Of a stretch of 64,000 bases of DNA, positions 7,778 to 64,000 are shown piece after piece. Under the pieces are notes generated by a model. That model had not been told where the DNA came from. It ran no database searches and saw only the letters and a program-made list of their open reading frames with translations. Position 1 is the stretch's first letter. Every line of letters begins with the position of its first letter. This stretch comes from Planctomycetota bacterium (lineage in GTDB: Bacteria > Planctomycetota > Phycisphaerae > Phycisphaerales > SM1A02): the NCBI GenBank assembly GCA_026386795.1, contig JAPLMU010000052.1:29506-93505 (forward strand), given 5' to 3'. Position numbers and translations under genes: made by a program.

Positions 7778-8172
7778 GGTGTTGGGGGATTGAGCAACGG
7801 GTCCACTGCCAGGCGCGAAACTCGTCCGCGATTGCGGACGCTGCGCTGGCCCCCGGAATTTTTTGCACTTGATACGAATGCAAGTGCTCGAAATGCCCCC
7901 ACTGGATTTCTCCAGCTCCCCGGACGTGGAATACCGTGACCATCAACCGACACCAATAAACACCTATCAAAGCACACAAATTCGACCTCGCCTCGTCACA
8001 TGGAGGCTTTCTTAAGAAGCACGAATTGTGCGTATCGGACGTATGCGAAAGGCACTTGAAGTCTATTCCTATCTGGATAGATGTCAAATTGCAAAGCGTA
8101 ATACCCTTGATAATTGCGCATTCAAGCGTGACTCGTGACCCATCCAACGTGACCTGAGGCATAGACTTTGGT

Positions 8173-8261
8173 CATTCGCTCGGGGCGCGGCCGCACTGGT
8201 GGTCCGCTGAGAAGTACCCGCGGAACCTGACCCGGTTCGTACCGGCGTAGGGAAGCGAATA
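8173..8261 (+). promoter_or_regulatory. TPP (THI-box) riboswitch aptamer upstream of thiC
   Basis: Contains 'CTGAGA...ACCTGA...GTACCGGCGTAGGGAA' THI-box core; P1 ATTCGCT (8174-8180) pairs with AGCGAAT (8254-8260); immediately upstream of thiC. Confidence 0.93.
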
Positions 8262-8356
8262 GCAGTTTCCGCACGCACGCGGGTTGCTATTCATCCTCAT
8301 GCTGGTTTGTCTCGCGGTGAGTGTCGCTTGACCACCATTTCCATGAGGATGAACAC

Positions 8357-22805: not shown

Positions 22806-24569
22806 TCACTCGTGGGAAGGATTGGGTCTATCGATTCGCTCCGCGTCGGTGCGGAATGCGTCGCGCGCCGACTTTGGAACTTCCCACAGCGTGAATCTGT
22901 CAGACTGTTTCACAATCTGTGATTCGCGCGGAATCGCAGCGACTGACATCGGCCCACGACCGCCCCCGCCGGGTGGCCCATCCGACCCGCGCCGCGCTTC
23001 CAGTATGTAGAGGCGTTCGTATCGATCAAAGTCCGACTCTTTCAGTGTTCCCCAGCGTGCGTGCGTGTTCATGGCAAATGCAGCCCAGAATTCCAAGCCA
23101 TGTCGCGCAGCAACGACAGCCTGATCGCCGGGTGCAATATCCGCACGCCAAGAACGCAATTCTGCGAAACCATCATCGTCCACCGTTTGCATGAGCCGCC
23201 CATGTCTGCTTGCGTTTGCAGTCACCACGAGTACTGTCGCTGCAATCACGGCTACGGATGTTTGAAGTATCTGCCACCCACGTCGCCGCGGTACACAAAG
23301 CAAGAACGCAGCTATGCACGCGAGTGGTACCGGCTCCATTAGTGCGAGCCGCATCATTTGGTCACCGCTTAAGAGCGGACATGCGAGGCATGCTGCCGTA
23401 AAGAGCAAGCCAAACAGGAATGCCTCATCAGCACGCGCGTGCGTGCACTCCTCTGCATCGGTTCGACGAATGGAACGCGTCGCCCACGTCAGGGCTGCAA
23501 TGCCGAGTGCAAGTGCAGTGATCCAGGCAGTGCCCATCCATGCGCCACTGATCGGTGGACCTGGTGGTCCGCGCATGCCTCGCCGTTCTTCGGGTCCACC
23601 CATGCCTCTCGGCCCACCGGGTCCTCGAGGTCCGTCCATGCCTCTGGGTCCATCCATCCCTCGGGGTCCATCCATACCTCGGGGTCCATCCATACCTCTG
23701 GGTCCACCCATCCCTCCCGAGCCTTCGCTTTCGCCAGAAATCAGCTTCGCGGGCAGCTTTATGACTGCTTCAGCCTTACCTGGCGCTATCCACCACACTG
23801 CACCAAATAGGACAGCGCCAACGACTGTGAATAGCAGCGCAGCGCGCAACGCGTGCTTCGGCGAGATCCCACCACGCACCGCCCACACGACAAGCATGAG
23901 CACACACCCAAGCGCCGTTGCGGCACACGTGCCCGCATGCGTGAGCGCCGTGAGAACGAGCATGACGATGGCCGCTAGCCACCAGTGTAATGAGCGGCGA
24001 CGATCACTCGCGCGCATGGCAGTCCATGTGCATATCCATGTGCTTGCCATGAAGACATATGCCATCGACTGTTTCTCAAAGTCACCGACCATTCGTAACA
24101 GCGGTGGGCTGATGGTGAGTGCAAGACCAACCGCGACTGCGCTCGGAATTGCGCTCCGTGTTCCGCGCCCAAAGATCCACGCAGCCATAAACAATGGAAT
24201 AGCCGCCAACGGCTCTGCAACAGTGTCAATAACGCGTGAAGCCCACAGAGTTGCAGTGTCAATATCCAAACCAAACATCAACATTGTGCATTTGGCAAGT
24301 ACTGCATCGCACAGAAAAGTAAGCGGCACATCGGACCACCGAAGTGCGCCTCGTTCCAGTAGCTCCCGAGCTTGTACCGCGTAGTAGCCAGCATCCATAC
24401 CTGCGGGCACAGCACTGCGAAAGAGCATCGATCCGCGTACGAAAAACGCAAACGCAACAACGGCGACAAGGGCGATGCACCACGCCTGGTCGCGAAACAT
24501 GGCGAGCGGCGAAGTGCAGCGCGTGGGGTGATTGGTGGCTGCTTCGGTTTCGTGGTCGGTACTCATCAT
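22806..24569 (-). CDS. Polytopic membrane protein, GT-C/PMT-like glycosyltransferase-like, with a collagen-like Gly-rich insert
   Basis: Many hydrophobic helices; N-terminal 'VPAGMDAGYYAVQARELLERGAL'; insert 'GGPRGMDGPRGMDGPRGMDGPRGMDGPRGPGGPRGMGGP'. Confidence 0.6.
   Translation of the reverse strand: MMSTDHETEAATNHPTRCTSPLAMFRDQAWCIALVAVVAFAFFVRGSMLFRSAVPAGMDAGYYAVQARELLERGALRWSDVPLTFLCDAVLAKCTMLMFGLDIDTATLWASRVIDTVAEPLAAIPLFMAAWIFGRGTRSAIPSAVAVGLALTISPPLLRMVGDFEKQSMAYVFMASTWICTWTAMRASDRRRSLHWWLAAIVMLVLTALTHAGTCAATALGCVLMLVVWAVRGGISPKHALRAALLFTVVGAVLFGAVWWIAPGKAEAVIKLPAKLISGESEGSGGMGGPRGMDGPRGMDGPRGMDGPRGMDGPRGPGGPRGMGGPEERRGMRGPPGPPISGAWMGTAWITALALGIAALTWATRSIRRTDAEECTHARADEAFLFGLLFTAACLACPLLSGDQMMRLALMEPVPLACIAAFLLCVPRRRGWQILQTSVAVIAATVLVVTANASRHGRLMQTVDDDGFAELRSWRADIAPGDQAVVAARHGLEFWAAFAMNTHARWGTLKESDFDRYERLYILEARRGSDGPPGGGGRGPMSVAAIPRESQIVKQSDRFTLWEVPKSARDAFRTDAERIDRPNPSHE
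23560..23724 (-). repeat. Coding minisatellite, ~18-bp units encoding GMDGPR
   Basis: Plus-strand reads repeated 'GGTCCATCCATACCTCGG'-type units at about 23629-23712, flanked by degenerate GP-rich units. Confidence 0.85.
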
Positions 24570-61361: not shown

Positions 61362-61799
61362 ATGCGCCTCTTCTCAAAGCTCTTCTTGATCTTGATTGCG
61401 CTCGGCGCTATGGGCCTCGGTCTGTTGGCACTCCGTCAGCAGCGCTATGAGGTCTCGAACGAGATTTCCCGAGCACACAATCGCATTGTGGAGCAGGAGC
61501 GCGCGCAGTGGCGCATGCGCGCGGAGATAGCGAGCCGCAGCGATCCAGCTGATATTCGTTCATATGCCAGCAAGCTGAAATGGGAATTGATTCCGGCAGG
61601 CGAGTCTGCGTTGCTTGCTGCAACACCCGCTGACACGGCTCTTGGTGGGCAAGTGGTTTCGAAAGTTACAAGTTCAGAAGCGGTCATCAAGGCAGCAACG
61701 ACAAAGCCCGGCACCGCAACGACGCCCGCAGCAAAGAAGTCCAGCGGTTCGAAGTCTTCCACCACTGGCAATGCGAAAGCAGGCACGCGTGAACGCTGA
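61362..61799 (+). CDS. FtsL-like small bitopic cell-division protein
   Basis: 145 aa; N-terminal TM 'LFLILIALGAMGLGLLAL' then coiled-coil-like segment; position between rsmH and ftsI. Confidence 0.6.
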   Translation: MRLFSKLFLILIALGAMGLGLLALRQQRYEVSNEISRAHNRIVEQERAQWRMRAEIASRSDPADIRSYASKLKWELIPAGESALLAATPADTALGGQVVSKVTSSEAVIKAATTKPGTATTPAAKKSSGSKSSTTGNAKAGTRER

Positions 61800-61827
61800 C
61801 GGAACACTTCATCAAGACACCGCAACC

Positions 61828-63669
61828 ATGGCGAGTGGCGATCAATCATTGCGCACCCGTCGTTGGGCTCGAGCAATGGTTGCTTGCACAGCCGTAGCGC
61901 TGACGCTGACCGTGGTTCGTGTAACGCAACTGAAGTTAATGCCTCCCGCGCAACTCGATGCTGCCGCTGGCCGGCGCACCAGCGTGCACAAGGAACTCGC
62001 GCAGCGTGGCGAAGTGCTTGACCAGCGCGGTCGCCCGCTCGCTATGAGTTTGGTGGGATACAAACTTTATTGTGACCCCGCCTTTATCTACGAAAGTGGC
62101 TGGGCCAAGGCAAAGAAGGCTTCCAAGACTGACCCGAATGCAGTCGCTGAGTGTGATCCATTCCGCGATGCGGCCATTGCGCTCGCGCCGGTCTTGCGTC
62201 GGGCGCCTCAGGCCATCGACGAACTTCTCAAGAAAAATGCTGAACGCCGCTATGTGATGCTCGCGCAGGAAATTGATGAAGCACAAGTCGACACGCTTCG
62301 GCAACTCGACATCGACGGTGTGGGGCTCGAGACCAAGCGAGTACGCGACTATCCGTCTGGAACGCTCGCGAATCAGTTGATCGGTAAAGTTGGCTTTGAG
62401 CACACCGGCCAAGCAGGGGTCGAGTTTTCATTCAATAAGGAATTGGCTCCCGTCGACGGCCGCGTGAAGGCGCTGCGCGATGCGTTTGGGCGGACATTAT
62501 GGATCAACCGTGACGACTACGTGCCCGGTGATGACGGGCAAGATGTCCGGCTCTCCATTGACCTTGCAATTCAGGAAATCGCAGAGCGGCATCTTGACAA
62601 GGCCGTAAAGGATTTCAACGCCGGTGGCGGGCGAGTCATTGTTCTCGACTCTTGCAACGGCGACATCTTGGCGATGGCTGATTTCCTACAGGAGCGACCG
62701 GGTTGGAAGGAAGCGACCCACGATCCATCACGGAAGATCCATCCATCATTGGGTCGCAATCGAAATTTCACCGATCCGTATGAGCCAGGCTCGACGATGA
62801 AGAGTTTCGTTTGGGCACGGGCCACGCAGCTTGGTCTTGCGAAGCCCACAGACATCATTCAGATGCCCGTCGGATCGCCCGTTGTTACCCCGTTTGGGCG
62901 CGTCATTCACAACGCCGAGGGCGATCCATACAAGTCGTATTCGTGGAAAGATGTGCTCGTCCACAGTGTGAACACGGGTATGGTGACTGTTGGTCTACGC
63001 ATGAGCCACGTGCAGATGCAAGATATGGTGCACGACTTCGGATTTGGTACGAAAGTAGCCATTGGCATCCCCGGTGAGAGCGCAGGTATTGTCACGCCGG
63101 CATCACGCTGGTCGGGCTACACGCAGTCATCAGTGGCGTTTGGTCATGAAATCGCAGTGACGCCGATTCAGATGGTCCGTGCGTTCAGCGCATTCGCCCG
63201 AGCGGACGGCACTATGGTGGCGCCGCGGCTTGTGTTGCCGCGCGGAACCACCACAAGCGAAGATTGGCTTCCTGGCTCCAAGCGAGTCATTGATGCAGAA
63301 GTACTCGTCGAAGCGAAGGACGCAATGTCGAGTGTTGTTGAATCGGGAACGGGTCGTAAGGCGCAGAGCGACAAGTACCGGATGTATGGCAAGACTGGTA
63401 CTGCTGAATTGTCGATACCCGGCACCAAGGGCTATGACCGTAGCCGCTACACGGCGAGTTTCCTTGCGGCTGCGCCACTCGAGACATCACGGATCGTGGT
63501 GTTGTGCGTGATTGATGACCCGGACAAGAAGAAGGGGCACTTCGGCGGAATGATCGCGGCGCCGGTCGTGCGCGATGTCGTTACCGAGACGCTTGAGTAC
63601 CTCGGCGTGCCGTACGACCAGGTGATGGAGAAGCGCTCGAAATCCGGTAGCAAAGTCGCGACGCGCTGA
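61828..63669 (+). CDS. ftsI: FtsI-type class B penicillin-binding protein
   Basis: 'EPGSTMKSFVWA' (SxxK), 'HSVNTGM' (SxN), 'YGKTGTAEL' (KTG); N-term TM. Start ATG at 61828 or GTG at 61789. Confidence 0.93.
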   Translation: MASGDQSLRTRRWARAMVACTAVALTLTVVRVTQLKLMPPAQLDAAAGRRTSVHKELAQRGEVLDQRGRPLAMSLVGYKLYCDPAFIYESGWAKAKKASKTDPNAVAECDPFRDAAIALAPVLRRAPQAIDELLKKNAERRYVMLAQEIDEAQVDTLRQLDIDGVGLETKRVRDYPSGTLANQLIGKVGFEHTGQAGVEFSFNKELAPVDGRVKALRDAFGRTLWINRDDYVPGDDGQDVRLSIDLAIQEIAERHLDKAVKDFNAGGGRVIVLDSCNGDILAMADFLQERPGWKEATHDPSRKIHPSLGRNRNFTDPYEPGSTMKSFVWARATQLGLAKPTDIIQMPVGSPVVTPFGRVIHNAEGDPYKSYSWKDVLVHSVNTGMVTVGLRMSHVQMQDMVHDFGFGTKVAIGIPGESAGIVTPASRWSGYTQSSVAFGHEIAVTPIQMVRAFSAFARADGTMVAPRLVLPRGTTTSEDWLPGSKRVIDAEVLVEAKDAMSSVVESGTGRKAQSDKYRMYGKTGTAELSIPGTKGYDRSRYTASFLAAAPLETSRIVVLCVIDDPDKKKGHFGGMIAAPVVRDVVTETLEYLGVPYDQVMEKRSKSGSKVATR

Positions 63670-63690
63670 GTCGGGCGCGTTGTTGCATCA

Positions 63691-64000
63691 CGGCTCTCTT
63701 ACTGGCTCGCAATCGCCTTACGAGGACGGCCGCTGAGCGCGGCCCTGTCCTCTCCGGCGAGTGCGGCCAGGGGTGGCGTTTTCCAAACCGGCTCTCTTAC
63801 TGGCTCGCAATCGCCTTACGAGGACGGCCGCTGCGCGCGGCCCTGTCCTCTCCGGCGAGTGCGGCCAGGGGTGGCGGTTTCCAAACTGGCGTTCGTACTG
63901 GTTCGCAATCGCCTTACGAGGACGGCCGCTGAGCGCGGCCCTGTCCTCTTCGGCGAGTGCGGCCAGGGGTGGCGGTTTCCAAACTGGCGTTCGTACTGGC
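63691..64000. repeat. 98-bp tandem repeat array (three full copies plus the start of a fourth, truncated by the window)
   Basis: Units start at 63691 (or 1 bp earlier), 63789, 63887, 63985; invariant core AATCGCCTTACGAGGACGGCCGCTG.GCGCGGCCCTGTCCTCT.CGGCGAGTGCGGCCAGGGGTGGCG.TTTCCAAAC. Confidence 0.95.

Follow-up and report, generated by a model that had tools for sequence, protein, structure and literature searches.

A tandem hairpin array downstream of ftsI as a probable site of a genus-restricted modular repeat in freshwater Phycisphaerales

A 98-bp hairpin array between ftsI and rsmA

Near the right end of the window, i.e., the whole 64,000-nucleotide stretch of DNA analyzed here, ftsI, encoding a peptidoglycan transpeptidase, occupies positions 61615–63669 of the forward strand (longest open reading frame; true start uncertain). 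Its stop codon is followed, after 21 bp, by a tandem array that runs to the last base of the window (63691–64000; period 98, 95% match, 3.2 copies), confirming the three full units and the start of a fourth that had been read from the sequence in the original prediction. The intervening 21 bp (63670–63690, forward strand) form a 5′ leader, GTCGGGCGCGTTGTTGCATCA, with a block in common with the first copy at other sites (GTTGTTGCATCACG). All units lie on the forward strand: unit 1 (63691–63788) consists of a hairpin, hereafter H (63702–63770, from the fold), and a linker, and is followed by unit 2 (63789–63886; hairpin 63800–63868), unit 3 (63887–63984; hairpin 63898–63966), and the first 16 bp of unit 4 (63985–64000). 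Two positions separate unit 1 from unit 2, and seven separate unit 3 from either; no open reading frame was found inside the 98-bp units.

The last base of the window is also base 93,505 of the 93,505-base contig C104, so that a continuation of the array past the window, as originally proposed, cannot be read directly; a 50-bp overlap with a second contig does add one unit. Contig C72 (L182) starts with the last 50 bp of the window's contig, and continues with the rest of unit 4, a tail ending GGCACCTATTT, and then rsmA (TIGR00755) and rny (TIGR03319), both on the strand opposite to ftsI. Four units are the simplest array size at the ftsI–rsmA site, a count that is not proven because the 50-mer overlap region recurs elsewhere. 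The next gene is thus the convergent rsmA and not the expected mur gene, and the proposed attenuator or structured array ahead of such a gene is not borne out, given the convergent gap, a sister species without the array, and the lack of a U-tract. Elsewhere in the window, we noted a TPP riboswitch (RF00059, 68.9 bits) at 8171–8270, and an 18/36-bp tandem repeat at 23593–23716 whose period is a multiple of three and which is probably coding.

Fold and structural conservation

The H of unit 1 folds with a minimum free energy of −52.1 kcal/mol (z = −3.8 versus dinucleotide shuffles), and the reverse strand of the unit folds equally well. From the base upward, the stem comprises a CTGGC/GCCAG foot, GCA/TGC, TCGCC/GGCGA, an unpaired TTAC/TCC internal loop, GAGGAC/GTCCTC, a CT bulge, GGCCGC/GCGGCC, and the loop TGAGC. 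The stems first drawn at 63713–63760 were correct, but represent the inner part of a longer hairpin that extends from CTGG to CCAG (63702–63770). Likewise, the differences between hairpins mostly fall at unpaired positions, as first noted (A/C in the loop, C/T in the internal loop), except for a C-to-T change at unit position 16 in the lower stem, which gives a G-U pair. Within the main family, exchanges were seen at two inner-stem pairs, i.e., C-G/U-A and G-C/A-U.

Conservation of the fold was settled by comparison with a sister family, H′, represented by about 40 full copies in a congener (G007) and one in another (G003), which is recovered at full length by a model built solely from H sequences (E about 1e-11). 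In a joint alignment of 11 sequences from H and H′, pairing holds in 98.5% of cells, against 88.6% when shuffled, and the covariation score reached 0.257, compared to 0.094 ± 0.016 for shuffled alignments and no more than 0.089 when the structure was slid. Six stem pairs are altered on both sides between H and H′, each representing few independent events since the comparison is essentially one divergence, while no change is seen in the foot (ACTGG/CCAG), in CGCC/GGCG, or in the unpaired TTRC facing YCC. Within H alone, the count of paired cells was no higher than in shuffles, because a spurious pair (13–62) was included and H varies little. Given the two-sided changes at six pairs and the retained internal loop, we read the hairpin fold from these alignments as truly conserved. 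Copies elsewhere keep their pairing through compensatory changes, and the stem-breaking substitutions named in the original prediction as grounds for abandoning the stem were not what these copies displayed.

A family restricted to one genus

A search for the 98-bp unit in the genome and its relatives, as initially suggested, uncovered a dispersed family. The source genome alone contains 40 matching places by BLAST, a number that excludes a chance origin, and 53 copies with a 70-bp core query, lying between genes either singly or in same-orientation arrays. With the same core query, copies were detected in 8 of 14 genomes of the genus (weakly in G007), so that at least eight genomes carry the family. 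Structure-model searches, free of the bias of exact matching but strictly filtered, found H in one genus out of 45 in the family and one out of 163 sampled across the order. A scan of 84,980 genomes with a pattern that demands exact inner-stem matches, which biases its list, returned only a handful of metagenome assemblies, mostly labeled Phycisphaerales, Phycisphaera, or Planctomycetaceae, along with one labeled Chitinophaga that we take as a mislabel. Phages, plasmids, and viral contigs yielded no H match, and Rfam 15 gave no relevant covariance-model match for the window and eleven other loci with H or its associated module E184 (see below). H is thus a genus-restricted family of a freshwater Phycisphaerales genus, as sampled through metagenome assemblies, all fragmented and broken at these very repeats.

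Across this family, a single hairpin out of 167 lay inside a predicted open reading frame. Gaps with H were convergent in 25 cases, divergent in 7, and codirectional in 30, versus 38, 53, and 152 for gaps without H (Fisher p = 4e-4, an optimistic value, the genes having been called with a simple home-made tool and part of the sites being orthologous). The median distance from H to the nearest stop codon was 53 bp. Neighboring copies always shared one orientation, and 20 of 30 codirectional copies were in sense orientation, a bias that is not significant.

H as one module of a longer element

In relatives, H forms part of a longer, multi-module element. A 184-nt structured module, E184, is found about 20–40 bp after H in four genomes (G002, G006, G009, and G010), between which it is 95–100% identical; examples include L228 (about 370–553), L210, L212, and L216. 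The upstream neighbor of E184 is H in 32 of 38 cases, while all readable downstream neighbors were either REP-type sequence (15) or another H (16, of which 14 were scored by script and 2 by eye). The RAYT-type REP that follows E184, GGGGACAGGGGTGAACGGCACCTATTT, also occurs on both sides of RAYT genes in three genomes. Relatives of E184 with ~70–75% identity exist in G003, G005, and G007, in the latter directly after H′, and they display about nine compensatory pairs between two clades. Most E184 copies have been lost or truncated in the window's clade, where amplification has instead affected the 98-bp H-plus-linker unit. In this genus, the inverted repeats that flank RAYT-like Y1 transposase genes (L034, L149–L162) are of several kinds, among them AAATAGGTGCCGTTCACCCCTGTCCCC, AAATTGTGTCCGGGGTATCCC, and a near-perfect palindrome of 59 bp.

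Site sharing, copy number, and homogenization

The flanks of 22 sites of the source genome (G000) were sought in three relatives, G012 (~95% identity to G000 at one compared locus), G010, and G009 (both ~85%). Where both flanks lay on one contig, H was present in 10 of 12 cases in G012, 4 of 8 in G010, and 6 of 9 in G009 (hand-read from search tables and alignments), an occupancy greatly exceeding the few per cent that random gaps would give. This high level of site sharing between species could stem from site-targeted insertion or maintained function and not from old insertions. Between clades, orthologous copies were no more alike than copies at shuffled sites (similarity of 0.931 versus 0.932, and 0.938 versus 0.939), whereas within a clade they were (0.970 versus 0.950, p = 0.002), a contrast based on about 67-nt cores at few sites. 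These similarities suggest that sites may be inherited with their sequences homogenized within clades, or may be repeatedly retargeted.

Copy number also changed at orthologous sites, with three copies versus one and two versus one between the source genome and its ~95%-identical sister G012. G012 carries no element at ftsI–rsmA or at L024b, the latter presence/absence amounting to 97 bp between imperfect direct repeats, GGCGKA(G)TTGCA; no clean target-site duplication was found. In G005, the ftsI–rsmA gap (L143) has a long inverted repeat with no relation to H, GAAATCCGTACC...GGTACGGATTTC, where H would be. At one further locus (L189; G009:C19:35300-36800), the flanks of two sites that lie on separate contigs in the source genome (L022 and L030) meet around H copies, which suggests a chromosomal rearrangement or recombination between H copies.

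Interpretation and alternative explanations

Taken together, we consider it likely that the array after ftsI is one site of a new, genus-restricted, non-coding modular interspersed repeat of a BOX/BIME-like kind, with a putative mobilizer acting in trans. Single elements would have arrived long ago by transposition, in trans because the element encodes no protein, and arrays would then grow and shrink through recombination or replication slippage between linker repeats, with copies kept alike through conversion or continued turnover. Selection would purge insertions from genes and promoters, so that those at 3′ ends remain, where the hairpin may be a tolerated or mildly useful RNA 3′-end or cruciform structure. 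We observed no gene family recurring beside H as an autonomous carrier would, the few matches resembling ordinary paralogues or fragments. It is also conceivable, if improbable, that the linkers themselves (GGTTTGCAAACC-type palindromes in the window's clade, GTTGTTGCATCACG in the sister clade) serve as both target and junction for a recombination or HUH-type system not yet described. Such a system would insert single hairpin units beside an existing linker in one orientation, producing directional arrays at fixed gene-end sites, homogenized within species and with sites inherited across species.

The main rival holds that H is a functional 3′-end RNA element, either a bidirectional terminator or an mRNA 3′ stabilizer, maintained by selection at fixed positions, which we regard as possible but unlikely. 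The proximity to stop codons, the enrichment of convergent gaps, the sites common to species of ~85% identity, and the compensatory changes that keep the stems are all in line with such a role, as is the excess of sense-oriented codirectional copies, were it significant. However, the hairpins have no following T-run, H is absent from orthologous gaps of close relatives, i.e., at ftsI–rsmA and L024b in G012 and at L005 and L023 in both G009 and G010, and a different GC-rich hairpin (GGGGCGGTGTTTCAACCGCCCC) adjoins H at the L008 site.

A direct tie to the Y1/HUH (RAYT-type) transposases of the genus, with H as their recognition hairpin and actively mobilized like REPs, seems quite improbable: the inverted repeats flanking these genes are of other types, with no H within 1.5 kb at any of the 15 loci scanned, the H-rich G006 and G009 show no RAYT while H-free genomes do (all genomes being incomplete), and H has neither a GTAG nor a CGTC tag. 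This holds even though RAYT genes were found in 9 of 14 genomes, the REP that flanks them also follows E184, and H keeps unpaired stem bases as REPs do. We give hardly any credence to an assembly artifact or a chance local tandem duplication, even though the array sits at the end of a contig in a metagenome assembly of 203 contigs, since the units carry distinguishing differences, arrays of three units lie inside contigs at an orthologous site of G012 (C30), assembled independently, and single and double copies are seen throughout. For the family as a whole, an artifact is refuted by the within-contig arrays, the unit differences, and the dispersed copies.

A modular repeat with a mobilizer in trans would add a structured interspersed family to the Phycisphaerales, none having been described there in the literature searched, with two independently diverged versions, H and H′, indicating that the fold itself is preserved. 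Shared sites and clade-homogenized copies would make it a natural system for the spread, tandemization, and concerted evolution of small bacterial repeats, and the repeat explains the ends of many contigs in these freshwater genomes.

Comparison with known systems

Several known element types were considered. Intrinsic terminators were rejected, the hairpins being GC-rich without a T-run and no terminator site being found in the array. An integron attC array was likewise rejected, as RYYYAAC/GTTRRRY core sites are absent and the units hold no cassette open reading frame; by direct reading, the only AAC of the unit is in TCCAAAC, and GTT occurs solely in forms such as GTTTCCA. MITEs are marked by terminal inverted repeats and a target-site duplication that match a resident insertion sequence; the comparison with them comes down to the one near-clean 97-bp presence/absence with its imperfect direct repeats, for which no insertion sequence with these ends was found. 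ERIC copies are mostly single, unlike the H arrays, and are likened to H here by description. ERIC/RU-type enterobacterial repeats (PMC2759123) and the H unit are alike in being about 100–130 bp, imperfectly palindromic, intergenic, and non-coding.

A REP-like element came closest among the four options first proposed (multi-hairpin RNA, attenuator, protein-binding array, or REP-like element), in that H is a dispersed intergenic hairpin family, but the defining features of REPs are missing. H and REPs/BIMEs (PMC3733652, PMC2817692) are both high-copy extragenic palindromes with many dispersed copies near gene ends, unpaired stem bases, stems kept by complementary mutations, and mosaics with other motifs, and true RAYT-type REPs adjoin H in this genus. 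REPs are defined by a GTAG/CGTC tag, a 20–40 bp palindrome, arrangement as inverted dimers or alternating BIMEs, and, for the GTAG type, a flanked RAYT (PMC3733652). In contrast, nearly all 205 trimmed H copies have the foot (K)TAC|TGGC...GCCAG|G, with rare single-base variants and no GTAG/CGTC tag; the conserved hairpin, at about 70 nt, is about twice as long; neighboring copies form same-orientation arrays; and H was within 1.5 kb of a RAYT at 0 of the 15 Y1_Tnp loci of the genus, in genomes that are incomplete. On tag, size, orientation, and RAYT flanking, REP membership is thus ruled out.

The closest functional analogue is the BOX element found in Streptococcus pneumoniae and S. suis (PMC3049150), with BIMEs (PMC2817692) next, a likeness of organization by which we do not claim BOX membership and in which no relation at the sequence level is expected. 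H differs from BOX in its other modules (H of about 70 nt, the 184-nt module, and REP-type ends), in being GC-rich, and in its occurrence in Phycisphaerales. Both are short modular intergenic elements with genus-level restriction and no encoded protein, with one stem-loop module that forms tandem runs of a single orientation, in numbers that vary between strains: BOX is organized as boxA-boxB(n)-boxC, with boxB in variable tandem number (PMC3049150), and H is likewise one stem-loop module of variable tandem number inside a multi-module element.
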